Positions 2,431 through 62,815 of a DNA stretch of 64,000 nucleotides are shown piece after piece. The notes beneath the pieces are model-generated. The model had not been told where the DNA came from and did not search any database. It was given only the letters and a program-made list of their open reading frames with translations. The DNA comes from Tribonema minus (Eukaryota > Sar > Xanthophyceae > Tribonematales > Tribonemataceae). The stretch's first letter is position 1. Every line of letters begins with the position of its first letter. The position numbers were made by a program, and so were the translations under genes. The DNA is taken from assembly GCA_017506865.1 (NCBI GenBank), contig JAFCMP010000544.1, positions 124,001-188,000 on the forward strand, given 5' to 3'.

Positions 2431-3332
2431 TCGTGGAGGTCAGCAGCTCTGGCAGGTGCCGCAGTTGACTTTTCCCGACAGTGCGCTCGCGGACGGGTGG
2501 GGTCGCGTGACGGCACCAGCATGCAGCAGCAGTGGCAGCAACAGCGCAGTGTGTGGTGAAGCAAAATGCACCATCAACTCTGAGCCCTGCAACACGCCTG
2601 TGTTGGGGACAGCGGCCATGCCATACGCGGAAGCTGCACTGGAGGCAAGTCGTCGATCAAGGCAAGCGTCGCGGCGTCTGCGCGAAGAAAAGCGGCTGCA
2701 CCTTCAAGTTGTCGCCGCGCTGCAGATGGTGCTGGCGTCAACATGGCTCAGCAAACGGTAGCTGGGCAGGCGTCTTCGAGGAAACCCGCAGCTGCTGCTG
2801 GCTCCATGAATGCAGATGACATGCTTCCTGCAGCTGTCGCACCATCTTTGACAGCAAAGCACACCGGCGCCATGGCTGCAGACAACAGTAATGGCTCGTC
2901 GTGACACTTCACATGGCACTGCAGTAAGGCAGCCTCAGTCACAGCTAAGGGCCTTGCGGATGACTCAGCAGGTGGCTCGGTCTCAGCCTAAACATGGAGT
3001 TGTCAGTGCACCGCTTGCAAAACGCAGAGCGCCCGTGGGTGCTGCATTGGCGCCAGCGGCAGCGGAGCTTGGCGCGCAACGGGATACCGGTGTATGCAAG
3101 CATCCCATTATGGGCAGAGCGGTACGCAGCGATGATGGAGGCGTGGCTGTGCTCCGCAGCACCAGCGATGCTGCTTTGAACTGCACGGCGCAGAGCCGCA
3201 AATCAAGCAGGCCTGGTGTACGTTGTGACTCCGGAGGCACAGCAGTGGTGAATGCTTCCGCCGTGGCATTGTGGCCTTGCGGCCGTGATGTGTCTAAAAA
3301 CTACACAGTTCCAGGGCGAGGGCCATATGTAC
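2431..3332 (+). pseudogene. frameshifted continuation of the gag-like ORF
   Basis: The coding-like text after 2430 is split among frames. Frame 2 carries an Arg-rich helical stretch (EASRRSRQASRRLREEKR, ~2640-2695). Another frame carries an Ala-rich stretch near 2740-2895. Frame 2 is open again at 2891-3352. That last ORF reads directly into the 3' end of the minus-strand LINE at 3333, so its final residues are LINE sequence. No catalytic domain is visible. I read this as the decayed 3' part of the same element, cut by the LINE insertion. Confidence 0.4.
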
Positions 3333-3410
3333 GTATGGACTTGTATTTATAAAGGCCCAAGGGAGGCCGGGTTGCCTATGCAATTGAAAAGCTTGCGTCA
3401 ACGCAGCAGC

Positions 3411-6284
3411 CTAGTCTGCGCTGTGTCCTAGGAGCTTGGATACCGGCGCTGCAACACAGCCCAGCATTCGCGCTCCGCGTGTGTACGCCATGACGCGCTC
3501 CGCCAACTCCCGCGCCAGCGACATGCTCAGCTCAATGAGGATCTGACGCTTAGCTAACCCGGCCTTGCGTAACACATCTGCCTTCCCCCCCCCTGAGCAC
3601 AGTGCTGAATGCATTGCCAACTCCTTGACAAAAAGTCTTGTCTGCTTGCCCAGCCGTCCGTACGACTCCTGCACAAATGGCACAAAAGCCCAAGATGACG
3701 TCAAGGTGCCGGTGTGGTGCTTGACCTTCGCGTCCTCCCCCACCCCAGCAGCATAGCCGTCCGTGTTCGAGGCATTTGTTTTGCCTGTCAGGTACGAGCT
3801 CGCTGCGGGCGCGCGCACACTTGTGTCTAGCACTATTCCCTTGTTACGGTATGCACTGCTAAAGTGCAGACACCCTGGGTCAATGACTGTGTCCGCCCGA
3901 TACCCCGGTACCTTGAAGACGCTAGCACCCTCATTGCGGACAATAGAGACATGGTGCTGTCTCAAGATGCGCTGCAGGCACCGTTTTTGAGCAGTGTGTG
4001 TCGCGTTGTGCCCCCGTATGTGCTGGCTGGGGCAGCTGATCGCATGCGTGGAGGTGGGGCTCACGTCACTGCACTGCCATGGGCACACCTCGCCCTGTAT
4101 GCCCCACCCGTCTATGAAGATCGCAACCAAAATCATCGTGGCTGCTGCCATACTGGACATGGGCGCCGCACCCGGGCGGTCATTGGCAGCGGGTGGCACG
4201 CTCATCCACGCCATTGCCCCGGACGCACGCTGGCTGCGCAGCTGCGCCAGGACCCGCGCGCTAGCCTGTTGGCGGCGGCGGCTGGTGTCGCGCGAGTCAC
4301 CAATAGGTGCAGCCTGTGTCAGCTTGCCCTCGGCACCAGCCGAGGCAGCCTCTAGGTCCTTCACCAGGCAATCCTCGTATTGGCGTCGAAGAACATTTGA
4401 AAGGCCGGCCTGTAGTCCGTGTGTGAAGTGACCGCGCCGGCGGCGAGGCACTACCTTCCTGCAGATCTCGTCAGCATAGGCCTCCCAGTCGTCGTCATCG
4501 TCCTCCTGCCCGCCGCTGCAGTTGCTTTCTTCCGCGCTAGTTTGTGTTTTAGCAGGCGTGGAAGAGGCAGCCGCGGCAGCGGCTTGAGGGCCAGGTACCG
4601 TCGCCGCCGCAGCGGCCGCCTCGGCGCCAGGCGCAATGCCGTGGGTGTGTGGGGCTGGCTCAGTGGTCACCGTCTCCGTGACGGCAGTTGCGGCGTAGAT
4701 CGCTTGCACCACAGTGGGGAGCGTCGACGCTGCGGCCGTCGTATCTGCTGCCCACCGTAGCAACGATGCTAGGAGCTGCTCGGCCACAGCTGTGCGTGAT
4801 TTTTCGCCGCCATCAGCTGTCAGCGCTCGCGTAGAGCGTCGCACGGCCTCGATGATTGGCGGCAGCCCCTGGTCCTCGCGAATTGCGCATGAGTGCTGCG
4901 CAAACCAGGTGACTGCGCCTTGTTCGTCAGTACCGAGCCTCAGGGCCCCTGCTGCCACAGTTGCATGAATTATTGCTGGCCGCAGTGTTGTGCATGCCTG
5001 GGCCGTGTATGCGGCTGGTGCCAGTAGCCCCAAAAGCGGCATGCCCAGACCGCCTCGTCGCTCCGGCAACCGTGATGCCCGCAGCGGCACTGCGATGTCC
5101 GTGAGTTCTGGCGGGCCCAAGCGCGGCAATACCAGCACGCTGCCACTGCTGGCTTCCTCATTGTCACCAGCAGTGCAGGCGGCCAGCAGGTGTGACTTCA
5201 TGGCTGCCGCGGTAGCGCAGCCGTGCAGGTGCAGCATGCGTTCGAGCGTCCATGCACAGAACCCGTCAAACGCGTGCAACCATGTCTCACTCAAATCCGT
5301 GTCAACAACCCGAGCTAAGAAGCCCATGCGCTTCGTCAGTGACCTGCGCAGAATGAACTGTGCTGCCTGTAGGTGATGCCGCGCCATTCCAGCCAGCTGC
5401 CACGACAATCGCCACGTCCATGCGTCAACAAGATGCTTGCTCATGGCAGCATGCACATAGGCTGGGTGCCCTACCGGTACCCCGACCGATGTAAAGCCCT
5501 GACTGGACTCTGGCATGGTGGCGTCCACAAACGGTATGTCAAGGGCGCGCAGGCGTGCTCTGGCTGCTTCATCAAACACTGTGCCGCGCATGGCGATGGC
5601 CAGCGACTTGTCTGGTCGAACGTGTAAGCCCCCTGCCGCCAGCCGGCGGATCACCTCTGCCACCCCAGCGGCCGCTGCATTGTCGAAATAGGCAGCTTGC
5701 AGCACGTTGAGGTCATCCAGGAAAGCGCAGTGCGGGGCTGGCGGTTCCGCTGTGCTGTGGCCGTAGGTCGGCATACTGCCGGGCGTCGCATTCACTCCAT
5801 CAGGGTAGAAGAGTAGGAAGGCCGCTGCCACTGCAAAGTATAGCGGCCCTAGAGGGTCCCCTTGCTGGCACCCTAGGTGGGAGCAGATAATGCGAGCTTC
5901 GCCGTTCACCTCCACTTGCATCTCTGGGGCAGTGTCGCCACAGTATACGGACTCAAAGTGCAGGAGCAGCTCCGGACAGAAGAGCATAAGCCCCCACACA
6001 ATGGCGGCGCGATCCACACTGTTAAACGCGTTCTCACAGTCCAGCTGGATTGTGGTGCCATACAGCTCGTGCCACACGCGCGCGCGTGCTGCCACATGCT
6101 CGACGCCAGACCGGTATCCTACGCCAAACTGCGACATGGAGGCCAGCAGCCCCGATATCTTGCCCTTGACGCTCCGTGCCGCTGTGGACCCGAGGAGTCT
6201 GCGCCAGACACTGGAGCAGGCGATTGGACGCCGCTTCTGTCCTATGCCTGAGAGAGCCGCGGCGCGGAGAAGCCGTTGCGATTG
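3411..6284 (-). pseudogene. LINE reverse transcriptase and restriction-like endonuclease region
   Basis: 908 codons are open from the ATG at 6137, and the same frame is open up to the TAG at 6285. RT motif A is LDCENAFNS (~6040). Motif B is GCQQGDPLGP (~5865). Motif C is AFLDDLNV (~5720), with Leu in place of the usual Ala/Val before DD. An acidic run (EDDDDDWE) follows at ~4490. A C-x3-C-x8-H-x3-C cluster (CPWQC to HAISC, ~4050-4115) precedes a PD-(D/E)XK-like block (YRADTVIDPG, ~3890; IVLDTSV, ~3830; a Lys near 3725). The order RT, CCHC, nuclease is that of R2/NeSL-type LINEs, which nick DNA and prime reverse transcription at chosen sites. The ORF stops at TAG 3411-3413. Confidence 0.88.
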
Positions 6285-8606
6285 CTACGGCATCAGTTCA
6301 GGCTCAACAAGCAGCGTCGTGAACACCTTGGCCAGGTGATGGGCGAATGACGGTTCCATCACATCTGATTCTGAATCACCAGCTAGTCCTGGCGAGGCAC
6401 TGTCCACGGGGCGGGTAGCTGCTTTTACTGGTGCACCAGGCCCAGCGGCCATCAAGAGGTGTTCATAGCGTAGGCCGTCCAGCCCTCCTGCCTTCCCCGC
6501 CCCTGCTGCGGACAAGGTCGACAGTATGTCTGTTGCCTCCACCTCGAGGCGCCGTCCGGCTGCGCTGGCAGCATCCTCAGGCCTATTGCTGTGATCATGC
6601 GCCTGGCCCGATTCGAAGACAGGACTGCCGCTGCCAGCGGGCCCGGCGGTCGCTGCCACCCCTGCGCTGTGCAAGCAGTGCCGCCGGGCGTCGCGTACCA
6701 GGCCGCGCACTTGCTCCATTGGCGTATCGACTACCCCCGGCCGGGTGCCAGTTTCAGGGTGCTTTGCTGCCAGCACCTGTGCAGTGACCTCGTCTGCTGG
6801 GGCGCATGCTTCACGCGCCTCTAGTCGTGCGGCAGCCAGGCCTACCCCCCGTCGCTTGCCTGAGAGGGCAGCGCACGCTGTTTGCTGCCTGGAGTCAGCC
6901 TCCGTCCAGTCGGCATCAAAGTTCGTTTGTGCCGACGCCGTAGCTGCGTTGTTTGTTTTGGGGGCCCGCAGCGCCGCTGCTGCTGACAGCGTCTTTCTCA
7001 GTAGCTCCACGAAATCGCCAGACAGCAACGCTGCCGACCGGGCCGCAGGCGGCATACCGGTTCCCTCCGGTTGCCTACCAAAGGCCATTGCTGCTAGCAG
7101 GTGCAGCAGCCTGTAGCCGCGCTGCACTAGAGTCTGAGAAACCTGATGAGCAAACGCCCCGGCACCATGATGGAGGCGCACCCGTGCCGCTTCACGTGCA
7201 CTGTCTGTGGTGTCTGCCAGTAGTCGTGTAGCGTGCTCCACTAACCGTGCCCACTGGGTGCATTGCAGCTGAGTGCGGAAGGGGTTGGCAGTCGTGGTGA
7301 ACCGCAGCAGCAGTAGATCCGCCTCATTGGTCTGGTCAAGTGCGTGGACGACCGAGGGTGTCGAGAGGTCCCAAGCCAGGGATGCCCGCTTTGAGGGCAT
7401 GCCACTGGTGGTGGTGGTCAGGGGGGGCGGCGACGCGGCATCGTCCGGCGGGTCCACGTCCATGTCCGCCCATCCCACGGCCGTCCCGTGGGGGGGGCTG
7501 CTGTCCTGCAGCCTCAGGCTGTCAGACTGAGTGCGGCTGCCGGCACTGCCAGGCGGCGCAGCAGCTGCCGTTCGGCGCCGGCGTTGCGCGCCGGTTGCCG
7601 TGGCCGCCGGGCGTTTCTTGCTGGACTTAGAGTTGGCAGCGCCACTAGCCGGCACCGCCGGTGGCTTTGGAGCTGCCGCTGCAGCAGCCCCCGCCGCCGC
7701 GGCCGCGCCATCGCTACCCGCACCGTGACCCCCGCCCTCGGACTGGCTTGGGGGTACTGCCGGGCGTGCGCGCGTGGGGGCGCTTCCATTCCATCGACAC
7801 GTGTGGCATGGCGAGGTCAGCGCGCATTGCCTCTGCCCCGCGCTGGCTGACATATGGACCAGACAGCAGGCACCTGTGCATGCACTCAGCTTTCTTACCG
7901 CCCGTAGAAAGTCTTCTGCCATGCAACCATACATGGTGCTCATCTCCTGCACACGCTTGGCATGGTGTGCCCCAGTGCTGCAGGTACTACTGCCTGACGG
8001 GACACGGTCACCGGATGGGTCGTGGTCAACCTGCTGCCGGATGCCCTTGGCGTATGCTGCCGCCGGATTTCGCTGACAGTGTGATGTGCTCGCCTCAGGG
8101 TTCAGCATCGACCTCGTGCAGCTACCCCCGTTGAAGTGGGCCACTACCGGTGCCATGCGGCTCGCAGCTGACAGTTTGCCTCGCTGTTTGCTGTCCTCTT
8201 TCTGACCAAGCTGCCAAAATGCCAGTGTGCATAGTTAACACCTCAGTGGCTCAGGCTGCTGTGGCAACTGCAGCGCCGTACGGGGCTGTGTCCGACTCGG
8301 AGCCGTGATGTGGGTGCTGTCAGCTTCAGTGGTCGCCGACGCTGTCACAGTGGTTGGCAAGGGCGGAGCTGCCGCAGGGGCGACAAGCAGTTCAAAGTGT
8401 CCCACATTTGTGTATAGCCCAGGCGGCGACCACAGCACATCCAGATGGCAGTCAGGCTGAGCTGGAGTCGCTGGTGCGAATACCGCTGGCAGCCCCATCA
8501 GTTGTGCCAGCACCAGCCCTGTTGATTTTTGCGTGCTGCCAGTGGCCTGAGGCTTGGCCTGCCACACCGTCACCGAGACCGCGTAGACCGCTGCAACAAT
8601 ATGCAA
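6285..8606 (-). pseudogene. LINE polyprotein, N-terminal half
   Basis: The segment upstream of the TAG at 6285-6287. The part 8606-8238 ends at a TAA and contains a Trp/His motif (LYTNVGHFELLVAP, ~8385-8430). This resembles the catalytic-His strand of cysteine proteases carried by some LINEs, but is too short to call. The part 8156-6288 has a long Ala/Pro/Lys-rich linker (~7780-7480), then a helical region and the start of the RT domain (KAGGLDGLRYEHLL, ~6445-6500, the usual AAGPDG-type motif). Reading through the TAG leads without a frame change into RPIA, another conserved RT motif (~6200), and QFGVG (~6120). The ORF is therefore one unit with two nonsense mutations. Confidence 0.85.
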
Positions 8607-8614
8607 TGACCAGA

Positions 8615-8875
8615 TCCATGAGAGGTAAGTTTCCAGCTTGATTCAAGGTGTCCAGTGATTTTATTAGCAGTTGCAAGCAGCGCAGCATTGCTCAGCGTAT
8701 GACGCTAACCCTAAACCAACATGCAGAGCAACCCTACTTCAACTTCAAGTTGAACATCAACCTCAACTTGAAGTTGAGCTTACAACTTCAACAAATGCAT
8801 GCAGAGTTGTGCGTCTCATCAACCGCTACACATGTGCCGTCGCACTTGCACCTCTGCATGCACCGCTGCCACATA
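8615..8875 (-). repeat. interspersed repeat A (family with B and C)
   Basis: About 260 bp, an inverted copy of 10506-10764 and related to 46795-47034. The core is a run of GTTGAA/CAACTT-type words with short CCCTAA-like stretches. The outer end reads gagaggtaagtttccagc and the inner end reads gctgccacata. No ORF is shared between copies. Confidence 0.8.
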
Positions 8876-8892
8876 CTGGAGCTCACATCCGG

Positions 8893-8960
8893 AATGTATC
8901 CCTTAATGCGTGCGGCTCGTAACGCAGTAGCGAGCCACATGGACGGGGTGCAGGCCACAG
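8893..8960. repeat. hairpin mini-element D, copy 1
   Basis: One of four copies of a ~75-bp sequence around ccttaatgcgtgcggctcg and cgagccacatgg. It sits directly beside repeat A. Its ends are diverged compared with copy 2. Confidence 0.6.
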
Positions 8961-9405
8961 CATCTGGTGCTGGGCGCGGCAGGGGTACACATGCCACAAC
9001 GCTCAGCAGCACGGGAGACACCGCAACTTCGCGTTCTGCGGAGAACGGCGGCATGGCGCTGGCAGCTGGCACGACGGCGCTCTTCAACATCGGCCATGCC
9101 ACTACGCTGCCGAGCGCAGTCAGTGCCTGTACTGCAGTGTGCTGCGACGATGTCACTACAACTTGCAGCCCCTGGATGTTGTCGTGCTGGCGCAGCTACA
9201 TGAGCACAGAACGGCGGTGCCTTCCAAAGCCTCCGTGGACGCAGGTGGACGTTTAAAGAGCTGGGGGGGGATCAGCTTGGCCACAGCGGAGCAGCATGGC
9301 GCCAGGATGTCGTGTACTGTCCACACCAGGCCCCAGCACTCTGCCCCATGTTTGAACAGGGGGGGTACATGTTGGCAGCATCCAGCATCTGGATCCTGGG
9401 GGGGG

Positions 9406-9481
9406 TATGTGGCATGTACCCCTTAATGCGTGCGGCTCGTAACGCAGTAACGAGCCACATGGACGCGGTACAGGCCACATA
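9406..9481. repeat. hairpin mini-element D, copy 2
   Basis: The best-preserved copy. It begins atgtggcatgtacc and ends with the inverted form ggtacaggccacat (one mismatch over 14 bp), with a second inner inverted match. It follows a G run (gggggg) at about 9399-9405. Confidence 0.65.
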
Positions 9482-10764: not shown

Positions 10765-10840
10765 ACCAGCACTGTATATATGGCCCCCGCGCATTGGAAA
10801 TGCGTAGTTATTAGACACATCACGGCCGCTAGGCCACATC

Positions 10841-10915
10841 TATGTGGCATGTACCCCTTAATGCGTGCGGCTCGTAATGCAGTAGCGAGCCACATGGACG
10901 AGGTGCAGGTCACAC
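10841..10915. repeat. hairpin mini-element D, copy 3
   Basis: Same orientation as copy 2. It starts tatgtggcatgtacc and lies about 75 bp after repeat B. Confidence 0.6.
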
Positions 10916-12190: not shown

Positions 12191-12201
12191 GTACAAGAGA
12201 G

Positions 12202-12241
12202 TTCTGGGCTTTTTCGCGCCCTGAGCGAGAATCAATAAAAA
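12202..12241 (+). mobile_element. 40-bp LINE tail of a second family (F2)
   Basis: The sequence gggctttttcgcgccctgag, then gcgagaatcaataaaaa. It is flanked by gtacaagagag at 12191-12201 and 12242-12252. Related 3' ends occur at 17365-17402, 56442-56480 and 63373-63394, all abutting GTAC. The body of this family is not in the window. Confidence 0.75.
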
Positions 12242-12252
12242 GTACAAGAGAG

Positions 12253-12389
12253 TAATGCTGGGCTGTGTTGCGGCGCCGGTATCCAAGCTCCTAGGGCACA
12301 GCGCAGACTAGGCTGCTGCGTTGACGCAAGCTTTTCGATTGCATAGGCAACCCGGCCTCCCTTGGGCCTTTATAAATACAAGTCCATAC
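12253..12389 (+). mobile_element. 137-bp 5'-truncated LINE copy with 11-bp target duplication
   Basis: Matches the last ~137 bp of the minus-strand LINE: the end of its ORF plus the tail ending aagtccatac. It is flanked by gtacaagagag at 12242-12252 and 12390-12400. The left duplication is also the right duplication of the F2 insertion beside it. Confidence 0.9.
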
Positions 12390-12517
12390 GTACAAGAGAG
12401 AGATGATCAATTTATTTGTTCACATTGCATTCAATTCCATTCAATTTCATTAAGTTGCATTCAATCCATTTACTGCCATCAGTCCCATATCATCCAATCT
12501 GAATGCCATCACCAATG

Positions 12518-12640: not shown

Positions 12641-12644
12641 GTGC

Positions 12645-16600: not shown

Positions 16601-19600
16601 GTGCTGGTCGCTGGTCCCATCCCATTTCTACACGATCAGCATGTGCAGGAGTCCACGTGTTGACTGCGCTATTGTCGGCTATGCGCACAAGAGGACTGGA
16701 CAGGGGGGTAGGGGGATAGCTGGATCGCCAGGGGACGCACGTCCAAAAAGCGCTGCCATGATTCTGTTACCGTCATTTGATGACAATGTCTGTTGACACT
16801 ACATACAGACTAGACGGTGTGCCGCCAGCTACCATGATGGTTGAGCTATTGCGGCGTCATGGCACGCACCGCCTTGCGTGCGGCAACGTGCGTGATCGTT
16901 GCAGTTGTCATGATCGACCATAAAGTGTTACATACGTTGGTATACCATGGTGTGTGAGAAACTTGTTTGATGAGTGGGTGTCGTGCAGTACAGCCCATTC
17001 CTTTCATGTCTTCAACTTGCACTATGAAGTATTTCATTGGTGCACATTCCATGGTAACAGTGATTCTAGCCACTTTCAATCAGCTGCGGGCATACAGATC
17101 TGCAGCACGCACAATCACCTCTTGATGAAGGTTTCTGGGCACGAAAATGGCAATGTTTGCATCAAAGGGGCCGTTACATGAGATCACAGGCAGTGGCGGA
17201 GGAGGGCCGGTCTCAGTCTTGTCCTGAGTGTGCTCGAGATATACCAGTGGGGAAAGCGCTGGCCATGTCGTTTCGAAGTGATCGGCAACGCGCATTGAGA
17301 CACTGTCAAGGTGCTCACAAGGACACATGTAGATTTTGATTGCAAGTCCATGGACATCCACCATCTGGGCTTGTTCGCGCCCTGAGCGAGAATTCATAAA
17401 AAGTACATTAGGGTCAAAGTCAGGGTTACCACATTGCGGTAGTCCTTTTTGTGATACGCGGAATTAGGCTTCTTGAAGATGTTTAGCGTAAGGTCTTAGG
17501 GTTATGATTGAGGTAGACTCATGTGTAATCCGTCAGCACTTGTGACCCTCACAGAACAGTCTGGCCCCTGCAATAAGCACATTCTCATCTAGGAGAGCAA
17601 CATAGGAATACTTCTATATCAGTGAATCACAACAGATGATGCAAGCACCCAAGATGGTGCCAATGCTCAAATGAGGCTGCGCAGTACAACTGCTCCCTCT
17701 TGAAGACTCAAATGTATGCTGAATGGTATGATGTATTCACTCACCTGACAGCTTCCTTCTCAAAGTGACCGACCAGATGGCTGACCCTGTATTGCACATC
17801 GAGCAAGCCAAGCACAATCCAAAGTGTTTTATTACAGTGGCCATTGCAGTGTGAGATCCGCACATGCACATGTCAAGTTACATTACTGGCATTGAGAACA
17901 TACTGTTGCCCTCAACTACACGACACCATCTGGCCGTCGTGAATTGGGCCTGATAACATCTGGCTTGAAGCTGCACAACACACCTAAGGGCTGACTGTCA
18001 TGTTATTCGATCCAATGCGTACTGCACTATGCGGCTGCACAAGATGGCCTTGCACATCTACTGCCGTACAAATACTTGCTAGAGCAAGTGTGACATATAT
18101 GCAAAATCATAGAAGTATCATGTTTGTTTCATGCTGGCATGAATTGCGCTTTGTAACCGACCTTGCTCTTTCAATGCTGTCCTTCTGCTCTAAGCAATCT
18201 CTTCAAATGTAATGAATGAATTTAAATCTGCTCGGGGGCATATAACAACTCTCAGAAGACGGCATGTATGCTGTAGTGTGATCTTGCATTACGCAGCAAC
18301 AGAATGAAGTTGGCAGGTATTTGAACTACCTGCAGTTCATTCACAAAGTAAAAGGTGTTTGAAACACTCAGATCGGGCGCATGTCAGGAGCCATACACGG
18401 TGGCTGTGTGAATCCTGTCGTTCAAAAGCAGTGCCACAACCTTCAAATGCGAGTAACCTGAAGAACAAGGCTGCTATCTGCATCAGCACAAATATCCAAT
18501 GCATCCAAACAGTAGTTGTGACGTGCTTGTGATGCAAGCATACCTTGATCGCTTCGGAATGTACACCAGCATGGACGGCAACGTCCCGCTGGAGAACAAG
18601 TCGGCCTGGAATCCCAGCCCTGCCACAAACTCAGGCTGACAATCAGCTCTCACAAAAGCCACCTGCCAAGGATTTGAGCCATCTACGCCAGCAGCAACAC
18701 AACAGGTGCGCATGAGGCTCAGTTCCTGGTACTAGCAATCTGCTTAAGGCCGTTAGAAGTCATAGTGTATGCATCGCTGTTGAACAATGGAGGTGGCCGA
18801 CTGCAAGTGCATAGTTACATGATAGCTGTGTAGGATAACCACTGAGCAGTCCTCGTGGCATTGCTTGAAGGCAGGTGCTGACGGCTCAATGTGTCATCAG
18901 TACCGCCGCAATATCAAGTGGTCAATGATGTGACGGATGAACGTAACTCTATCAACTCACCATCATTCGAGTGAACACGGTAGCAGTGCATTGCTGTCCA
19001 ACTTGAGTCCACATACGCACAGTTCAATGCTTGCAGACAGCAAATTTAGAATCAATCTTGTTTGTGACAAGCACAGCTTAGACGCAGGGCGCTTAAATAT
19101 ACTGCTGCATGTGCTGTCGCCATCAGAGCATTGCCTTGCTGATACAGACGCTCATATAGCACACACGTTCACGCCTTACCTGGTCGGAGCGGAATTGTAT
19201 TCTGCAGTACCTCTGTGACGGCCATCAGGGGGTCTGCAGCCTTTGCCTGGGTATCAGCGCTGCAGAGCACATGGTGCGGCAAAGCAATGCTTGTGGCATG
19301 AGCGTAGTGTGCTATTGGTGACCAGAACAAACAATACAGGCTTGAAGGGAGGCACGATCATCTATGTACATGTTAAACAGAACTGCATGCGTTGTGGCTG
19401 CCTGCCAACCACATAAGTAGTGCAGATGCCTTGATGCTGTCGGCGCTGCTTACAAGCCACACAATGTAGGCAATCAAAGCAATTGATCTCGTTGCAGTGA
19501 CCATGGATCACATACCTGGCTGTTGGCACTAGTGCTATGATACACAGGGAGGTCTGGTTTGGCAGGCACACATCTTTCTCCCAGCTGTCAGCCGTAATCT

Positions 19601-37000: not shown

Positions 37001-40000
37001 CTTTAAGGGACCTGAGCTCGCTCAAAGCTAGCCAATGCTGCTTGTACATCGATCACTGTCAGAGGCTCATTATATGTGTACATGGACTACTGTCAGAGCC
37101 TCATTATACAACAAGCAATGTTACACTTGGCGTGGAATCAAAGATGGTGCGGATTTGATGCCTGGTGTCACGGTACCAATAGCGCTTGCAATGCACCTCA
37201 CTGGTCCAATAAATTTTCCTCTTTCCGTAATGCCTCCAGAAAATGTACTCTTTTTAGACCTTGCGTGGACCGCTTTCTTTGTATTTGCACTTCCGAGATG
37301 CGCACAGCGCACGTTCTGCATCTGCCACCTGCAACGCATCTGGAGGAAGTGGTTTCAAATGGAAGGAATGTTTTGACTGATTGAGGCATTGAGTAGCGTC
37401 CAATGAGACAAATGTTAAGGTCTTGCTCCATGCATACCACCATGCGTTTTGTTTTGTAGCGCAACAACACCACAGTGCCGTTGTCAGCTAGATCTAGACT
37501 GCAGGTATGTACATGTTTCACAGGAGCGTCTCAAGCAGGTAAAACTTCCAAGATCTATTCGCAAATGTACATCTCTGTGACAGACCGACCTTGTTGAGCC
37601 GAAGGCTGTCTCATCACAGCTAAATACATTTAAGTATCTACTGTTTCATCTTTGTTATTTCAACCTCATGATGCACTTGTATTGGTGGCCAGCTCTCTGC
37701 TGAAGAACTCAACCTAGTTTGCTGCTTGTACACTTCAAGAACTAGCCTACAGGCTGGTCGACAGCATGCGATGCCTGACGCACAGGGATTGTGCTAGACA
37801 TGCCATGATGAACATGCAATGCCATATGGGCAAGCAGTGCACAGCAGAGTTGAGAACACACTGTCATGGCAGGCGCAGTGGGGGGAAAACACCATACTCA
37901 CGGGGGAACGCATGGCAGCAACTGCAATGGGTTGCCACACACAACGCCCCGGGTGGGTGGGAGGATATTTGATGTGGCAGCAGCCTTGCAGAGCGCAGGT
38001 TCGCCTGTCGACTCGAGCTGCCCGTGCCAACGAAGTCTGATTGACTGATTGCCACAAGGGTGTTCGAACACGTGGCACTTGACACGTGGCACACGCTTCC
38101 TCTCTCTCTGTGTGCCTTTGGCTAGTTCCTGGTTTTTGGCTCCCTTTGTGCCAAAATTGCCGAAAACTTTGAGGTTTACAGCGCTGCCTGCATGCAGCTT
38201 GCAATCATCCTTTTGACACTTGGCGTTGCGTGCACCTGTATGTTTTCCATTACAGTGGCGCCGCTTCGGACATCATGCTGCCACAAGCGGTGAATACCGC
38301 TATGGTACTGCATGGACCTTCAAGGTTTCTGACCGCAATGCACGTGGCGCTTGTCCATGCGCCAGATGAGTTCACCCAGAAAGTGAGTACGTGTTAGGTC
38401 ATGAGCAGTTGAATGCAGAGCATCGATGCACAATGTTTTCTATCACTTACCGGCATTGCGGTGCCCTTACCTAGCGTTGGCCACAGCGCATGCGTTGGGC
38501 AAGCACATGCATTGGGCAACCATACAAATGTCATATGCTTGAACTCTGTAGATCTGTAGTTCACTCTAAATGCAAAGTTTCCTCGCACAGAAATCTTTTT
38601 AAAATGATCTGAGATCATTTCATAACTACTCTTCATAATTGAAGCGGGTGGTGTTGGGGTGGACATGCGGCTGTGCTGTGCATGAAAGTATTGATGTATC
38701 ATCGAACTGAGACTACTCTTCAAAATGAGTGAAATTCTTGACTTGTCTGGCCTTCCCAACACCTGTTACGGTACTGGCAAGCTCAGGTAACACTGCCGCT
38801 TAAGGGCAACCACACAGGTTTTCCTTAAGACTGCACCAAAGCAGGTATGGCAAAGAGAAGACTCAATGCTGTACGTATGGACTTGTATTTATAAAGGCTC
38901 AATGCTGTACTGGTGTAAGAAAAGTGTGTGCTGCTCAAGTTACAGGTTGCAAGTGCTGTTCGTGGGCTTGAAGTAATCTCGTAGGGGCCTCACTGGGAGT
39001 GCCATACAGTGTGAACACGGCAACTCAGCCCCATTTGAGACGGGGCTCAATACATGCATGGGTTGAATTGATGATACGCGTGGGCCAATTTCCACCGATA
39101 CCTACTGGCGGCGTTGGGCACGGATATTATCAGAGTTTGCCTGCATTATGGTGGCACAACTGGCAGCATACAGCGCCCGAATTGGCGGCTCAGCTAGTGA
39201 AACTAGGTTGCGAGAAAACGGTCTGCTGGCGCTTGACTACATGGCAGTACAACCAGGACAAGCCGCGGTACATGTGTCAAACTCATTTTGTAGCCCTGGC
39301 CTATTCAGCATTCCTAGGTGAAGACGCTGGGCTTCTGTGCCATCATCAGAAGCCATGGTCTAACATATTTTTTGTCCCGTATACAAGGCATCTAGTACTC
39401 CTCTACAGCGGTGAAGCACGTTTGCTACGTCACCTTTCTGCCTTCGGAGGATCATGACATCAGTTTCCTGGTTAGGTCACTGTGTGTGTGTGTGTAGAAG
39501 AAGCATATGCTGATATCCTCTTTGCTTCGTTTCAATACGCAGGCCCTTGTCCCATATGGGCTCAACCATTCCTTCGGCTGTGGAGACGAGGCATTCAGGC
39601 AGTTCATGGAGTCGCCACGCTTTGGGTGAGCATTTTTTGCATGCTGCTAATGCTGCTGGCAGTGAAGGCTATCAGATTTTGGACAGAGTTTTGCACGTCT
39701 CTCATACCTTTGCATTTCAGTGTACATTGCTCTGATGCACAGAGAGTTGTATTGTGACTAAAGGAAGGTACGAAATACTATTATATTCACTGCAGCAAGC
39801 GCTGGCAACCGCTCTGCCATGTTATATGCACGCAGCGCTGGCTAATAAGCCTTGGTGCTCTCATTAGTCTAGGCACCAGTTGTCTGTATGCAAGGCAAAC
39901 AATAGGCACAACACCTGACGGCGCAACGTTCGATGACACTAGATCAGACGCTTCACAAGGGGCTCGCTGTAATTGGTGCTTCAATTTTGACATCTGCTCC

Positions 40001-43400: not shown

Positions 43401-46236
43401 GCTGGTCACTTTCAGCCACAAATCCTCAAGAACGCCGTGTTGAAGATGTGAGATGGAACAAACATGTCCATGATGCATACATACTTTGAAGTATACGTGT
43501 ATGGCATCAACAATTAAGTCATGGTCTTGACGCCCCACAACCTCACAGACTGAATCTTGACACCTGACAGGTGTTGACATCTAGCAATTCTGGTGTCACA
43601 GTGTGCAGAAGTAGTGGCTGGTGCTTGGAGCTCTGCCTGCTTCCATCAATGCATCGAGATCAGCATCAGAGACTGGCCTCGCTTGGCATGTACTTAAGTG
43701 GAAATGTTGTGCACATGTTTGGGTACAGGAGAATCAACCTGGGTGGCCAGCCAAGCATGCAATCAGAAGGCTATGAGACGCAGGTGAGACAGCTCATATT
43801 GACTGCAGATGGTACGAGCTGGCAGCAGCAGGTTTGAGTCAGCGGCGGCCTTTGGCAGTCCAGCCTGAATTTCAGCCATCTACCTTGAAGATAATATTAT
43901 GCATGCTTGCTGCAAGACTCAGTTCCAGCTCTCCAGCAGGCCTGCAGTGACTCCCAACAATAACCCACTCCGAAGATTTGTTTGCGCCCTTCTGTGATTG
44001 GTTGTGATTGTTGAATTCAACGACTGGATCAGCCATGGCCTGCAGAATGGCGCTCACAGCATGAAAGCATGTCAACTTTTGCTCTGCAACTGCTTCATAC
44101 TGTGTGGCGCGTGGATCAATTCTCGTTGATGTTTGCTTGCAATGAAGCAGAACTTTATTTTCATCGTTCCAATCCTCTATGCATCTTCTTCTGATTCTTA
44201 TAGCTCTGATTGCCTTCGTGCCATTTGCTTCAGCACTGCATGGGGAAGCATCCTTGATGATGTGACGCTTATACTGAGTTATTGCACACGGCCGCTGTTT
44301 GCAGGTCTTTCTGGTTGCATCACGCACATAAAAGCGCTTTATGGACAACAAATGCATGCTCCTGCCATACAGGCAGGCTATCAATCTGTCCTGGAGCATG
44401 CTATGCCAATGGCAGCAATCGACGACCAAGCGGCCCTGTGACAGTGGAGGATGACCAATTAGACGCAGGTCTATGCTGATGCAAGAGAGTTTGAGACGCA
44501 AAAGTTTGTGTGGATTACATGTCCGTGGTAGTGAGTGCAGCTGCACAGCTCTGCCTGCATATTCAACAAGGTGCTGGGCCACATGGCAAGCAACCGCGGC
44601 ACCATGCTTAGTTGAATCATGCACCAGAGGCCGACAACGACACTAATATTTATGTGGTTTTTCATTGCTGCTGGCGCTGGCTGTGGGCTGAATGATTATG
44701 ATCTGTTTGACACCTTGCACATGCGCAGCAGTAATTCCAGTGCATGTTAACAGAGAAGGCGCACATTTTACAATATTTTTGGCACTACATTACTTGATGT
44801 AGTTGTCAACATGAAGTATTAGTTCCGCAAGGAGTTTCTGGGTACGACATAGAATGTGTTTCAGGTTCAGGCCTGTTTTTTCTGTCTAAACATTTTTGCT
44901 GACCAACTTCAGGCGCTGATGTTACCTGAAGAGCTGCGGTAAAAGGTAATTACGAGTTTATAAGTAAAAATGTAGAGCTACTCCTCAGCTTCAATCTATT
45001 GTTCGGCTCCACCATGTGTCAGACACACCACAACGCGCCAATTAACGCGAATTGAAACCATAAACGTCTCACCAACAGTGCTCGGCGGTACCATGACTGC
45101 AGCGCGGCAGCTGCAGGGCTGTAGTCAGAATTCGGCATCTTTTTTGTGCAAGCTCTGACGCTACATAGTCAAAGAGCAGCAATGGGACTTCAATGTTATT
45201 GAGCAGTACTGTGGCTGCAGCGCAGCAACAGCATGAACTGCGGACAGCACTGGGTCCAGAGTCGATTTTAACCAAAAACGCCTCAAACGTCTGAAGTGTT
45301 TGTTTGGTCCATCTGTATTGAATTGAAGATTTGGTGTGCGAGCAGGACGAGCAGGAAATGTTGAACACAATTCACGTTTGAACATGTTCAGCAATCTGCG
45401 ATCCCTTTCTTGAAACATGTTCGGACATCGTCTAGATTCTCCAACCGCTGTTTGAGCTCCCAAGGTGTGGTTTATCCTGCAGGTGGGCTGCACTTTTCGT
45501 GGCTGCAGGCACGTATTGCATTATTCTGATAGTCTAAACCATTTGCTTTCAGAGGGCTGGTGTCGCAATGTTGGGTCATGTGTGGGTGTTCTGGCCGTAC
45601 AAACATGTTCTGAGGTGTTCTGTTGGTCGAAAAGTGTCCAAACAGTTCTGATCAGGGTCTCCAAGCGGGTTATAATTCAAGACGCGTGTAGTCTGCTAGT
45701 ATCAAGTCTTTGAGTCCTGTTGTGGTGCAGCTTATAGATGCCTGGCACTGTTGTAGTTGTGTCAACAGATTTGAGCACAGCTACAAGCTGTCCCCTACAA
45801 GTACTTGGAGCTCAAAACTAGAGCTCAATCGCAGCCAGCGCGTTGAATGAGCAATTTGCGTGAACCGCATCCATCTCTTTAGCCACTGCGCAGGGAATGG
45901 CGTTAAGCCTGCAGAGCTTACGTCACATGTGAAGATAGTCGACTGTCAGCACACGAAACTGAACAGGAGCATACAGCCTGACCAGCAGCATGTGACATGT
46001 GTACAGTGCTTATAAATACAAGTCCATACGTACAGTGCTTATGTTGCAGGGTGTGGATGGCAGAATTATCGCAGTCAGAGTCGCTGATCATCAGTTTCTG
46101 TTGGCAGGGCTCAGCGCTCAATTCTGCCAGCGGACTTGAGTCTAATTCACGTGCTTTGTGCAATTGGCCGGCCTGCAGACTCACCATAGTGGCCACAGGC
46201 AGACAAAAATGCAGCAGAACTCAGGGCAGCTGTTAG
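34050..46236 (+). CDS. gene B: large multi-exon gene, family not recognised
   Basis: Supported exons: 34050-34274, 34324-~34465, 34815-34901, 35775-35844, 35887-35959, 36465-36547, 36635-36731, 36806-36918, 37097-37164, 38256-38382, 39543-39625, 40138-40192, 41167-41246, 41762-41978, 43165-43208, 43399-43447, 43571-43783, 44469-44527, 46050-46236 (TAG). From 38256 to the end every junction keeps phase. Characteristic stretches are HALSLTALFTQQKMYLLQLP (perhaps a beta-propeller blade), HYEGPLAVYGETVNGPAE, LVPYGLNHSFGCGDEAF and LASLGMYLSGNVVHMFGY. Exon 41762 is charged and helical (ELDELVELQKLREQ). The C-terminal exon has Trp/Cys-rich text. The start codon and some exons between 34.3 and 38.2 kb are missing from my model, and the 34274/34324 junction is off by one base. 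No function is proposed. The gene pairs head to head with gene A. Confidence 0.6.
38875..38897 (-). mobile_element. 23-bp LINE tail with 13-bp target duplication
   Basis: Reads gtatggacttgtatttataa plus agg, the complement of the LINE 3' terminus. It is flanked by exact copies of ctcaatgctgtac at 38862-38874 and 38898-38910. It lies in an intron of gene B. Confidence 0.88.
40381..40436. repeat. CTG microsatellite
   Basis: About 18 CTG units with single TCC and TGT interruptions, in an intron of gene B. Confidence 0.9.
46014..46029 (+). mobile_element. 16-bp LINE tail with 13-bp target duplication
   Basis: aaatacaagtccatac is flanked by gtacagtgcttat at 46001-46013 and 46030-46042. The exact left border is ambiguous by 3 bp because the target and the tail share tat. 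It sits in the last intron of gene B, ending 20 bases before the acceptor AG at 46048-46049. Confidence 0.85.
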
Positions 46237-47034: not shown

Positions 47035-47060
47035 GCAAATGCTAAATGTGGACACGCGTA

Positions 47061-51800: not shown

Positions 51801-54800
51801 GCCACGGCACCCTCAGGTGGTCCTGTCGCATCAACCCTGCTGAAGAGGGACACAGAACAGCAACAGCAGTTGATGTTACTGTACATCCTTGGCGCATAGC
51901 ATGAAACCTAAGAAGCGAGTCAAGGACTTTCGAGTAGAGGCATCAAGAATGTGCGCGCTGACAAAAGTGAGCACAAACCTACCTGTCGATGCTCGGTTCC
52001 GGTACGTCGACTAGCTGCTGCGCTGACAGCTGGTGCCGTAGAAGCTGTACTTCAGCCAGCTTGTTCACTGACAGCTTGTGCCGCCGAAGCTGTACTTGAG
52101 CCAACTTGGTCACCTGCAGGCATGAAGGACAAGGCAGCACCGTGCAGAAATCAGGAGGGCGTTGCAGTGAATCATGCACACGACTTTCAGAAATCAAAGC
52201 ATCGCTGTCACAGCAGTGCCATGTTATGTCAGCGCAGGCGCTTACCAGCATTATCCATGTGGCGTTGTCAATCTTGACACCACGGGTTGCATGTACGCCT
52301 GACGACCCGGCATGGCCACTGACATGCATCTCGGGTTCCTGTATGACGGCGATCGCGCTGACCGCGGTGGTTGCAGCAGGTGTGCCCAAGTCGGTGGAAG
52401 GCATGGCAATGCCTTGTGCGCTGGTGATCTCATGCGGAGTGGGGATATCGCCTCCGTACGCAGTCCAAGCGGGAGGGCATGTATTGGTGCCAGCAGCGTC
52501 GCCTGTAGCATCACTACCAGGTGCCCCTGAAGTTTGTGCGTGTGCTGCTAGAGGGTAACTGGCGGGCAGCACACGGCCAGACTCTGCCACAGTGGCAGAT
52601 GGTCCCTCATCTTGTTCAGCGGTGGCGGTCTCCACCGCCGCTGTGTCATTTCCAGCTGCATCTTCTTTGCGCGCCAGCGAGCTGTGTACCGTACTGCGAC
52701 AGCACCAGGGAGTATGTTTGTACAGCACTCAATGTGTGAGGGGTTTGATTGATACTCTGCACGCAGTACAGCGCAGGAGCAAGTCGTGTGTGCAGCTGTT
52801 GTTAAGAAGTCAAGCTGTTGTTGAGCCAATGTGCTGCCAATCTGACAGTGGACAGGAGAGAGGGATGGATTCAGCAGAATTGTAGTTGCAAGGATGTGAA
52901 CAAGGTTGTGCAGAGTGGTGATGACGTCACAGCACCCCGTATGAGAGGAACGTAGTTGATGATTGTCCAATGCAAACAAGACTTGTCGTAATGGTGCCCT
53001 ACACTTGAAGTGACGTGCCGGGATCTAATTCATGAGGTAGACAACCTGCACCAGCAATAAGTGGATCCAGCAAGGCGCAGCGGTCAATATCAATGATGGT
53101 ACTGAGCCCCTCACTGCAAGGCAGATGTGAGGCTTAGGCCCCCGCTGAAATGAAGTGCCCAAAGCGCAATCTTTGGGGCCAGCAGTGCACTGGTGCCAGC
53201 AAACCAGCATGCAATGGCAGCAATCCATCAACCAAAGCCAATAGTACCAATGTGGCCGTGTGCGTTAGGTTACGTATGCTCCACTCCTGTCTCGTCCACC
53301 ACCTTAGTGACCCACCTCGGCTCACTCGTGATGGCGAGCTGACTGATGGCCAGGTGCTCCGCATTCCCCTGCCATACCCTGCACTGCTCCTCCTCCTCCA
53401 GCAGTGGCTATGAAGCAACATACAAGGAGGGGATCTTGCATGAGAATTTTAGAGCAGGCAAGCCGCAGTGTGCATGTCCACATCTGTTGTTAATACGGTG
53501 ATGACCGACGGTGCTTTTCGCAGCAATTTTACGTGCAGTGACACGAATTTTGTTGCGCCCTTTCAGCATCTTCGTCTGCCTCATGGAAAAAGTATATTAT
53601 GGCAGCAAACAGACTCCTATGCATAAGTCGTGTATACGACTCACTCACCTGCAACAAGCTGCAGACTGTCTCAAACGCCCTGGTTTGGCTCTCCTTGTCA
53701 TCGCCAGGCCTACCCCCGGTGTCCCTGCACACGACAGACTCTGCCACAATGGCAGATGGTCCCTCATCTTGTCCAGCGGTGACACTCTTCACCGCCGCTG
53801 TGTCATTTACAGCTGCATCTTCTTCGCGTGCCAGCGAGCTGTGTACCGTACTGCGACAGCACCAGGGAGTATGTATATGTACAGCACTCAATGTGTGAGG
53901 GGTTTGATTGATGCATCTGCACGTGAACAACGCAGGAGCAAGTCATGTGTGCAGCTGTTGTAAAGAAGTCAAAGCTGTCGCTGAGCCAATGTGCTGCCAA
54001 CTCATCAGCATAATCCACAACGCTACCATGCAGGCGAGGCGAGATATATAGACCAGTGACAGGATCCTGATGGGCATAACAGCAGACTCAGGCTACAACT
54101 GCTGTACAAGCAATTGCCTGCATAGTGAGCAGGTATATGGTGGCTGCGACAGTGGCGGCATGTATCCATCGAAAGCCTGGCTGAACCAGCAGCAGGGAGT
54201 GATGACATGCCATCTGTGGCCAGCAGCAAACCAGCATGCATTGGCAGGAATCCACCACCCAGAGCCAAAAGTGTCAATGTGGCTGTGTGCGTGAGTTTAT
54301 GTATGCTCCACTCCTGTCTCGTCCACCACCCTAGTGACTCGCCTCGGCTCACTCGTGATGGCAGGCTGACTGATGGCCAGGTGCTCCGCATTCCCCTGCC
54401 ATACCCTGCACTGCTCCTCCTCCTCCAGCAGTGGCTATGAAGCAACATACAAAGAGGAGATCTTGCATGAGAATTTGAAAACAGGCAAGTGGCAGTGTGC
54501 ATGCCCACATCTGTTATTAATGTGGCCATGACCGAAGGTGCTTTCAGAAGGTGAGCCTCTCCGCAGCAATTTTACGTGCAGTGACAAGAATATTGTTGCG
54601 CCCTTCCAGCATGTTCTTCTGCCTCATGGACAGTATGTAATGACAGCAAACATACTCCTATGCATAAGTCGTATACACGACTCACTCACCTGCAACAAGC
54701 TGCAGACCGTATCAAACGCCCTGGTTTGGCTCGCCTTGTCATCGCCAGGCCTACCCCCGGTGTCCCTGCACACACATTGGTCGAGATCGCACCACTCAAT

Positions 54801-56329: not shown

Positions 56330-56441
56330 ATGTTAACATTTGCGGAATCACAGCAGCTCACCAGAGAGATCTCGAGGCAAGAACCTGAAGATAATGCTCA
56401 AGCACAGAGAACAGGCCACACAATGTATGTGCATTTGTACT

Positions 56442-56480
56442 TTTCATTAATTCTCGCTCAGGGCGCAAAAAAGCCCAGAT
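56442..56480 (-). mobile_element. F2 LINE tail between genes C and D
   Basis: Abuts gtac at 56438-56441 and reads, on the minus strand, gggcttttttgcgccctgag then cgagaattaatgaaaa. It aligns with 12202-12241. No second target copy was recognised. Confidence 0.65.
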
Positions 56481-56933
56481 GATTGGCATCTAGCTGTAAG
56501 GAATCTGCATGTCGTATGACAGTCTGAAAGTGTCGCAACGACAACCACTCAAACGCCGCCGCCGCCATTTGTACTACTGCAGAGCTTCTGACACATATCC
56601 GAGAACTGTGCATGGCACTCATGGGTGCACACAGCCATCAATATGTATGCTGTCCAGCAAGCGACCCACATGCCCCCCTTCTCCCCTTCCGCCCCTTCCA
56701 AGGAATGCAACAGTAGTGGCTGACATGGTGCGCCTAACAGTACTGCTGCTGATGCTGCCTCCTAAATAGCATCAGTTCCTCGCCTTGCCGCTTCTTGGAT
56801 CATTGTGCTATTCTTCAACATCCCCCCCTGCAAGTTGCCCTGCACCCTCAGGTATGCTACCTTCTAAGACACACGATCCCCTCAATGACCCACTGTAGCA
56901 GTAGTGTAGATGGCAATGGTCTGCCAGACGCTG

Positions 56934-59900: not shown

Positions 59901-60975
59901 AGCCATAAGCGGAGGTGATCAGCAGCACATGGCATAAGCTCTCCTGCTTTGTGATTCTGACGAAGAATTGAAGCAGCGTTTTTGCCGATCAGCCTCATGC
60001 TCGTCCCCCCATTTGGTGATTTCGTGAATCTCATCGATGACCAGCACGGGCCACCGCCGCTGGTTGTCTGAAAGCTCCTTCGCGTCGCGCGCCAGCTTCC
60101 ACTCCTCGAGTACCTTCGCGTAGATGTCGATGACTCGCGATATGCTGTCTGGTGGTGGCTCTTGCGACATCTCCGATCGCTGTTGCGGCTGCTGCAGCAG
60201 CAGCTTGTCTGATGCCTGCTGCGCTTTGATGCCATCCCCGAACGAAAACGTAATCTTCCCCTCAGGCGTCACATCCACCTCAAACTTGATCGTTGAAGCC
60301 CAAGCAGCAAATGCGGCCGTGAGTGAGCGCTGGCGGTCGTCAGGCAGGCCATTGACGAGTGGAGACATGCCCTTCCTGGCTAATGCAGAGGCAAACAGCG
60401 CCGGAGTTTTAACTGATTGTCCGCGGAGGTCCATGAAGAGCACGCCGCTGCCTTGCCGCTCTTCGTCGCCTAGCAGCAGACTCTCGACGACATTCTTTAC
60501 TAAACAAGACTTGCCGCAGTTGACTGGCCCCAGCATCAAATAAAGTGCTTTCGGCTCTTGGCTGAGCGTGTTCGACAGTTTCTCGCGCTCTTCGTCGCGG
60601 TCATATATCCATTTCTGCGTCTTCCCTGTGCTGTTGTTGCCACCATTGGAGGCTGCAGCGTCGGGATTTGCGGCTCGCAGGCAACTGCACAACGAGGCAT
60701 CAATTTTTGACAGAAGACGTAAGTGCCGGCAGAGTCTATGTGACGCAGCAGTTGCTGGCCGATGCAGTAAGCACAGGCCGCAATCACTTAGGCTTGCACC
60801 CTTCATGGTAGATTGTTGTTGAACTGCTATTTCTCAAAGTAGTAGTATGTAGTCACCTGTAGGTGGAGCTGCTGATGCGATGCGGGTACCATCGCAACGA
60901 AACGGGAGGGGTAGAGAGAAGAGCGGCAGTCAAGCAGCAGCAGCCAACGAGGACGGTGGCGATCGGTTTCACCAT
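56934..60975 (-). CDS. gene D: P-loop ATPase with N-terminal targeting segment and C-terminal coiled coil
   Basis: Exons: 60975-60857, 60684-59880, 59678-59596, 58986-58864, 58616-58536, 58070-57664, 57086-56934 (TAG). Exon 1 (MVKPIATVLVGCCCLTAALL) is hydrophobic then Arg-rich, so a signal or organelle-targeting peptide. Walker A is GPVNCGKSCLVK (~60515-60550). Walker B is VLVIDEIHEITKW (~60010-60050). A sensor-like strand is VLLITSAYGF (~59905-59930). A CGGNAGAL motif (~58940), as in archaeal-type/STAND ATPases, and a helical lid (RPYSTWARDVDK) follow. The last exon is coiled coil (EVAALREARKVLQDETKQ). These proteins bind and hydrolyse ATP; the process served is unknown. An A5 run at 59979-59983 shifts the frame by one; adding one base restores both the frame and the phase at the next splice. 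One exon between 59596 and 58986 is probably missing. A 58070 exon without splicing would end at TAG 57511. Confidence 0.72.
57290..57535. repeat. C-rich block with repeated GGCTATTCA words
   Basis: Long C and G tracts alternate with (g)gctattca at about 57378, 57411, 57468 and 57490, and a degenerate copy at 57509. The inverted tracts (cttgggggggctattcagcc / ctagccccccccccaagc) can fold. It lies in the last intron of gene D. It looks like a MITE-like or low-complexity element; no target duplication seen. Confidence 0.5.
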
Positions 60976-61764
60976 GCCCTAAGTCGAGGCGTTGCTGCTG
61001 CTGCGCTGTGCGCTGCTGCTGCTGCCGCTGCGAGGAAAATGCTGAGCAGCTGCCGGTGTTGCTGAGCACCCTGCCCCTGTCTATTCTCCCTCCCCCCTTC
61101 CAGGGCCCTCCCCACCGTGGTCTGTGTAGCGCCCTGCCTGCCACGTTGCCATGTGATCAATCATACATGCAGAAAGCTCATCCGCAGAGACAACGTATAT
61201 ACGTTGGTGTGCTTCGAGCCTACGACCTGCCCTTTCCGGTGTTTCGGCCATGCGATACGGCTATCACTGCGTGGCGCTGCATATCTTGACGACAACAGGG
61301 TGTTTATTCCTAGATCCAGGCGTTGTTCATGAATTCAAGGTGGTACAAGCAGGGAAAGGCCGCCGCAGGCCAGACGCTACGAAGTGCATACGATCATCTT
61401 GAAGGCACAGTAATAAGGGAAGGCTGGCATGTGCACAAGAGGAGCGCTGGAGATCATCGTGTGTGTGTCAGGACATGCACACGTCATAAGCTATACAGGT
61501 ATACAGACTACATGGAGCCCACAGAAGCGACCAGCAGCGCCGCAGCGAGAAGTGAGCGCTGGCAGATGCATAGTGCAACGTGCATGAGACAACAGCTGAT
61601 TGCAATATGGCACTGACGCACTTGCGTGAGGGTGTGAAGCACATGGAACGCTAAGATGAAAGTGCAGGTTCGGGTCCTTCAAGATCGCCTCTCCGACTTA
61701 TGAGACAAGAGCAGCCCAACATCAAGAATGGATCAGCGGAAGACGGTGCACGTCAAGGAGGCAA
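60976..61764. other. upstream region of gene D, no gene seen
   Basis: Starts with CTG/GCTGC-rich sequence just 5' of the gene D start (60985-61060), which should hold its promoter and 5' UTR. Two ~95-codon + frames (61008 and 61323) have no motifs or splice support. Confidence 0.45.
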
Positions 61765-62811
61765 TAGGAGGATTGCCTCAGCGTGAAGGACCTAGAGGCT
61801 GCCTCGGCTGGTGCCGTGCCGACTCAGGCTGCACTTATCGGTGGCTCGCGCGGGCGACACCAGCCGCCACCGCCAACAGGCTAACGCGCGGGTCATGGCG
61901 CAGCTGCGTAGTCAACGTGCGTCGGGGCCATGGCATGGATGAGCGTGCCGCCCACTGCCGAATGATTGCCCGGGTGCGGCGCCCATGTCCAGCATGACAG
62001 CAGCCATGATAATTGGTTGCGATCTTCATAGACGGGTGGGGCATTCAGGGCGACGTGTGCCCATGGCAGTGCAGTGACGTGAGCCGCACCTCCATGCATG
62101 CGGTCAGCTGCCCCAGCCAGCACATACGGGGGCACAGCGCGACGCACACAGTGACTGCCCAAAAGCAGTGCCTCCAGCGCATCTTGAGACAGCACCATGT
62201 CTCTATTGTCCGCAATGCGCCTAGGACGCCAGCGACTTCAAGGTGCCGGGGTATCGGCGGACACAGTCATCGACCCAGGGTGTCTGCACTTCAGCAGTGC
62301 ATACCGCAACAAGGGAATAGTGCGAGACACAAGTGTGTGCGCACCCACGGCGAGCTCGTACCTGGCAGGCACAACAAATGCCTTAAGTGCGGTGGGGGAG
62401 GACGCAAAGGTCAAGCACCACACCGGCACCTTGACGTCATCTTGGGCCTTAGTGCAATTCGTGCAGGAGTCGTACGGACGGCTGGGCAAGCAGACAAAAC
62501 TTTTTCTCAAGGAGTTGGCAATGCACACAGCTCTCTGCTCAGGGGGGGGGAAGGCAGATGTGTTGCGCAAGGCCGGGCTAGCTAAGCTTCAGATCCTCAT
62601 TGCGCTGATCATGTCACTGGCGCGGAAGCTGGCGGAGCGCATCATGGCGTACTCACGCGGAGCATGAATTCTGGACTGTGTTGCAGTGCCGGTATCCAAG
62701 TAAGGGCGCAGAGCAGACTAGACTGCTGCGTTGACGCAAACGTTTTTAATTGCACAGGCAACCCGGCCTCCCTGGGGCCTTCAAAAATACTATAGTACTA
62801 CAAGTCCGCAA
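61765..62811 (+). mobile_element. 5'-truncated LINE copy (3' third)
   Basis: Matches the main LINE from the VKDLEAASAG region to the 3' tail. It keeps IFIDGWGIQGDVCPWQC, the CCHC cluster, ADTVIDPG, VGEDAKVKHH, FVQESYGRLGKQTK and AERIMAYSRGA. The frame shifts at least twice (near 62000 and 62210), and the region before 62000 has small indels. The 3' tail (aaaatactatagtactacaa then gtccgcaa) is altered but still abuts GTAC at 62812. No left target duplication was found. Confidence 0.88.
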
Positions 62812-62815
62812 GTAC

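Follow-up and report, generated by a model that had tools for sequence, protein, structure and literature searches.

Two distantly related LINE families of the yellow-green alga Tribonema minus insert mostly at GTAC

Introduction

Among LINEs with a restriction-like endonuclease (RLE), R4 and R8 are known for defined gene targets rather than for a 4-bp word, and the NeSL clade is marked by an extra protease-type domain or a spliced-leader target. Ectocarpus, a brown alga, is another ochrophyte besides Tribonema minus. R2 is the 28S rDNA-specific RLE LINE (PDB 8gh6, 8ibw, 9nl2, 9nl3, 9dou). The accessible sections of PMC4640811 portray RLE LINEs as mainly target-specific, with repeats such as rDNA, snRNA genes and microsatellites as targets, and HERO as containing many non-specific families; those of PMC6895275 describe LINE cleavage sites as generally not palindromic and give target duplications of 13 bp for R4 and 9 bp for R8. 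For EhLINE1, the available part of PMC3118788 gives a nicking preference of 5'-GTATT-3'. The available part of PMC12477816 (2025) counts 4821 LINE/CRE copies in 2 families of Ectocarpus, names no target site of these and refers to T. minus in connection with a different element. In open-licence full text we found no report of a GTAC target for RLE LINEs, which may be reported elsewhere.

Here we describe two LINE families, termed main and F2, starting from a window of 64,000 nucleotides (C541:124001-188000) of one T. minus genome (158 Mb, 554 contigs). Both insert mostly at GTAC.

Results

According to a first-pass annotation of the window, the LINE 3' ends abut GTAC. This was borne out copy by copy: GTAC directly follows the 3' end of main copies at 3329-3332 (-), 12390, 38871-38874 (-), 46030 and 62812-62815, and that of F2 copies at 12242, 17403 and 56437-56440 (-), the latter coordinates replacing 56438-56441. 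The one exception noted, a GTGC, is real and starts at 12641 instead of 12640. The last F2 copy does carry GTAC at its 3' end, but at 63369-63372, the earlier 63398-63401 belonging to the 5'-side copy of the duplication. The features are:

3329..3332 (-): GTAC at the 3' end of a main copy that starts at 3333 and extends to at least 8156
3411..6137 (-): open frame of this main copy with most of the RT, the CCHC and the PD-(D/E)XK region (D749, D771, K804)
6285..8156 (-): second open frame of this copy, lying upstream and coding for the N-terminal part as far as the RT start
12191..12202 (+): 5' target duplication GTACAAGAGAG(T) of the F2 copy 12203-12241
12203..12241 (+): F2 insertion, 39 bp, 5'-truncated
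12242..12252 (+): shared duplication, 3' of this F2 copy and 5' of the main copy that follows; one GTAC target used twice
12253..12389 (+): main insertion, 137 bp, 5'-truncated
12390..12400 (+): 3' target duplication GTACAAGAGAG of the main copy 12253..12389
12641..12644 (+): GTGC after the 3' tail of a further main copy, a second-choice site
17403..17406 (+): GTAC directly after the 3' tail of an F2 copy, duplication not found
38862..38874 (-): 3' target duplication, GTACAGCATTGAG read on the minus strand
38875..38897 (-): main insertion of 19-23 bp, tail only
38898..38910 (-): 5' target duplication of the main insertion 38875..38897
46001..46013 (+): 5' target duplication GTACAGTGCTTAT of the main insertion 46014..46029
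46014..46029 (+): main insertion of 16-20 bp, tail only
46030..46042 (+): 3' target duplication of the main insertion 46014..46029
56432..56440 (-): 3' target duplication of an F2 copy, GTACAAATG on the minus strand
56566..56574 (-): 5' target duplication of this F2 copy (56441-56565)
62812..62815 (+): GTAC directly after the 3' tail, ending AAGTCCGCAA, of a diverged main-like copy, duplication not found
63366..63372 (-): 3' duplication GTACAAC (on the minus strand) of a 22-bp F2 insertion (63373-63394)
63395..63401 (-): 5' duplication of the 22-bp F2 insertion, only 7 bp, formerly taken for the 3' junction

Target duplications were seen for six of the ten window copies; none was found for those at 3329, 12641, 17403 and 62812, the 5' end of the first not being located. 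This main copy, which starts at 3333, looks broken, as its two open frames stand apart. At 12191, 12242 and 12390, GTACAAGAGAG is present three times and serves two copies, F2 and main having inserted successively at one target. Bare 3' tails of about 16-23 bp flanked by target duplications (46014-46029, 38875-38897, 63373-63394) imply that a reverse transcript of no more than about 20 bases can still be integrated.

Repeats of other kinds were seen as well. The window holds direct repeats of 140-300 bp at 52578-54773 (spacing about 1.0-1.2 kb, 91-94% identical), and five main 3' ends in one orientation recur with a spacing of 2791-2792 bp at G000:C524:11010-22547 (L005, L013, L014, L015, L027), evidently a tandem array containing the LINE end.

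Genome-wide, there are 1104 exact matches to the 20-base main tail, followed by GTAC in 887 cases, by GTGC in 105, by GCAC in 10 and by other words in 102; the exact F2 tail occurs 1802 times, with GTAC 0-2 bases after it in 1684. The resulting shares of 80% (main) and 93% (F2) refer to a single genome and to copies located via their 3' tail, such that other 3' ends would escape and the exact match favours young copies. The 217 of 1104 main tails at other words count against our best explanation. Two samples of 30 loci picked without regard to GTAC gave GTAC 26, GTGC 2, GTTC 1 and GTAA 1 (first 30 main loci in contig order) and GTAC 25, GGAC 3 and GTGC 2 (first 30 F2 loci). In a wider junction set, GTAC was found at 42/50 F2 and 63/71 main junctions; this set is biased by inclusion of the main loci L001-L030, for which the query contained GTAC, and was hence excluded from the rate. 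At a window background of 0.37% of positions, GTAC at the 3' junctions is far above expectation in both families, which rules out chance as its source and provides the enrichment that the first-pass annotation had anticipated. Flanks past the motif differ among most copies, indicating separate insertions apart from duplicated loci such as L011, L019 and L028. Together with GTAC on the 5' side of the elements (see below), the junction counts also uphold the earlier proposal of a 4-bp site used at dispersed loci.

The same annotation had named, as one of two refuting outcomes, that GTAC belongs to the element end and not to the target duplication. When the 3' flank was compared with its longest upstream copy, 10/30 main loci had an exact copy 11-14 bases long, and GTAC opened each of these; upstream matches of at least 11 bases arise at 31/1200 random positions from chance and repeats alone, which has to be set against this result. 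A search blind to GTAC, using bases +5 to +13 only, retrieved an upstream copy at 8/71 main junctions, preceded by GTAC in 8/8, and at 6/50 F2 junctions, preceded by GTAC in only 3/6, the latter counting against our best explanation; a swapped-flank control gave 1/71 and 1/50, none with GTAC. With the 5' boundary defined by BLAST, above-threshold duplications were obtained in 22/44 main and 24/46 F2 copies, and none past threshold in 22/44 and 22/46. By construction, the start of each such duplication coincides with that of the 3' flank; all but one, a 10-bp F2 case beginning GTAG, begin with GTAC. Without recourse to the 3' flank, 31/41 main and 32/46 F2 copies with distinct flanks have GTAC no more than about 20 bases from the 5' boundary, versus 7-8% expected at the window's GTAC rate; stacked rows are not all independent, some F2 copies having inserted into older tails in which GTAC was already present. 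Inclusion of L001-L030 (GTAC-containing query) among the main copies of the blind and BLAST tests has no bearing on the 5' side. GTAC stands immediately in front of the element in several copies for which no duplication was called, a hint that some duplications may comprise 4-6 bp. At L095, with rows read by eye, the 5' copy is GTACAAAT and the 3' copy ATACAAAT; this difference implies that some non-GTAC junctions are later mutations. With GTAC also present 5' of the element and the two L095 copies at hand, the question was decided in favour of GTAC as target.

No clean empty allele was seen when 46 joined flank pairs were compared with all sampled loci; the matches were mostly to the own locus across the insertion, and a few to F2-derived or overlapping loci. 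For a 77-base joined flank of an insertion-bearing repeat, the 41 matches covered only its two halves, with no continuous empty copy. As a separate observation, the flanks of one main insertion are common to L011, L019 and L028, and their 44-base 3' flank, with its first base exactly at GTAC, recurs at further places; it may be a repeat carrying the insertion, or another element's boundary at GTAC.

The site extends somewhat beyond the four bases. In 20 main duplications of at least 9 bp, GTAC is preceded by A (13), T (6) or G (1) and followed by A (14), T (3), C (2) or G (1), and A or T follows GTAC in 702/887 main junctions genome-wide. The upstream side of F2 is A-rich (A at -4 in 13/14, at -2 in 12/14), in part because some F2 copies sit in the tails of older copies. 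As GTAC is palindromic, neutral decay should yield GTGC and GCAC equally. The 105 GTGC versus 10 GCAC after main tails (p ~4e-21) rule out post-insertion decay as the main source of GTGC and mark it as a true second choice, with recognition being not fully symmetric.

Two tails point at one shared GTAC at 5 main/main and 16 main/F2 places, against expectations of about 0.7 and 2.5 under equal use of every GTAC word; L091 and L092 are examples read individually. The 5 main/main places are not independent, since two of the three contigs hold paired, rearranged arrays (L100, L101). From these arrangements, both strands of one GTAC can evidently be used. At L100 (C59:301950-302350) and L101 (C257:79100-79450), short main tails of alternating orientation around GTAC form palindromes.

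The protein layout initially read from the main copy, RT followed by CCHC and PD-(D/E)XK, stands: the D-D-K residues and the CCHC are conserved, and the predicted fold matches R2. Pfam PF00078 was detected in 9/11 members of alignment A1; the window main copy itself scores below the cut-off (25.2 vs 29.6). Profile A1 matches an R2 chain (1.9e-10). A CCHC pattern between RT and endonuclease is present in 7/11 A1 rows, two of the other four lacking coverage of the region and two not fitting the pattern, and in 9/9 A2 rows. The elements show what defines RLE LINEs, namely a non-LTR RT, CCHC, and PD-(D/E)XK catalytic residues and predicted fold, along with a fixed 3' end, 5' truncation and target duplication. 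Parts of the main protein match T. minus records with up to 95% identity, and the main family has metagenomic relatives. F2 has an open frame of its own, at least 1351 aa long, in which RT and endonuclease regions are present; this rules out that it is a SINE or non-autonomous partner. Its metagenomic relatives share 47-57% identity (P0059-P0063). The predicted structure of F2 was unusable (pLDDT 34), and the F2 profile gave no meaningful match to PDB. The 3' tails of the two families look unrelated. A pattern search for relatives among viral contigs hit 33 stretches, of which none could be confirmed. Three T. minus proteins, P0064 (annotated as Lon protease C-terminal), P0058 and P0065, contain stretches 98-99% identical to the F2 RT, which would represent either fused gene models or exonised LINE sequence.

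Discussion

We consider main and F2 to be two autonomous RT-CCHC-PD-(D/E)XK LINE lineages in which a nick 3' of GTAC primes reverse transcription and gives rise to GTAC-led duplications, a reading to which we assign a probability of roughly 0.8. The sequences show GTAC as the target, standing at the start of the duplication with A/T flanks and GTGC as second choice, the use of both strands of one GTAC, and separate, homologous protein regions in each family; that the restriction-like domain itself reads GTAC, as well as the strand order, the RNA ends and a common inheritance of the specificity, is what we infer. Because the duplication starts with GTAC right after the element, the bottom-strand primer should end in GTAC-3'OH, placing the first nick directly 3' of GTAC on that strand (5'-GTAC^W-3'). 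The element RNA, with CAUAC (main) or AAAAA (F2) as its last bases, would then be reverse transcribed from the exposed primer. The top strand would be cut mostly about 9-14 bp downstream, roughly one helix turn away and not at the mirror position, which would give duplications of 4 bp; the products would be duplications beginning with GTAC, often with heavy 5' truncation of the element. That both families insert mostly at GTAC suggests that their nucleases act in the manner of a bacterial restriction enzyme whose recognition site is very short. Our belief is evenly divided on a broader idea, according to which an RLE LINE lineage, here of stramenopiles, kept recognition of GTAC (WGTACW) through protein divergence down to 20-28% identity, the nuclease reading the word alone in the manner of a type II enzyme; insertions would renew the sites, two GTAC per insertion, and elements would stack at one site in both orientations.

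The site might instead be picked by pairing, if the RNAs of both families end in GUAC and a 4-base match to the nicked primer selects GTAC among loosely specific nicks. A GTAC-ending primer would indeed pair with such an RNA, the product would look identical and the same four bases are found in both families. Judged from sequence alone, the RNA may also end in GUAC and pair with the primer. Selection of the site by pairing is nevertheless rather unlikely. With a GCAC target the G-U pair formed would be tolerable, whereas GTGC would leave an A-C mismatch; even so, GTGC outnumbers GCAC about tenfold (105 vs 10), an argument weakened by the differing position of the mismatch. The A/T preference on both sides of GTAC, moreover, lies outside a 4-base RNA end.

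That one family alone supplies the nuclease and mobilises the other in trans would account for the common site and for the stacking of main and F2 at the same GTAC (window 12191-12400 plus the 16 further tail-to-tail places). We regard this as improbable, given the F2 frame of at least 1351 aa and its relatives (P0059-P0063, 47-57%), the likewise existing metagenomic relatives of main and the unrelated look of the two tails. The first-pass annotation had offered a shared nuclease or mobilisation in trans to explain F2; the former survives if taken to mean that each family has its own, homologous nuclease, and the latter is not needed for an element with its own RT and nuclease region. Least probable by far is that GTAC represents the last four bases of the element: its near constancy at the 3' end would fit, but GTAC occurs on the 5' side as well, and the differing 5' and 3' copies at L095 speak against it.

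Two deeply diverged lineages share a 4-bp palindromic target, used at over two thousand dispersed junctions, and this opens first-strand site recognition by RLE nucleases to direct tests, for which the many natural insertions offer a comparison set. With a palindrome, site recognition and strand order can also be told apart: one and the same GTAC is usable in both orientations, but the second cut mostly does not mirror the first.

R2 has the same order of RT, CCHC and restriction-like endonuclease, and the predicted fold of the main protein matches it. In the sections of PMC6895275 available, however, R2 uses one 28S site with small staggers, whereas the target of main and F2 is a 4-bp word found at dispersed loci, and their duplications measure about 9-14 bp; their varied flanks set them apart from the R2 clade with its single 28S rDNA insertion site. 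As to NeSL, the N-terminal piece of the broken window main copy matched 0 Pfam families and the targets are dispersed. The 13-bp and 9-bp duplications given for R4 and R8 in the same sections resemble those seen here. The Ectocarpus LINE/CRE elements are ochrophyte LINEs too. The nearest short-site precedent that we found, judged from the accessible part of PMC3118788, is EhLINE1/EhSINE1 of Entamoeba, likewise an RLE LINE with CCHC, a short nicking preference and dispersed copies. Its partner is a SINE, whereas main and F2 are both protein-coding, and its site is a preference without a palindrome, as opposed to the palindromic GTAC at which 80% of main and 93% of F2 exact-tail copies reside.
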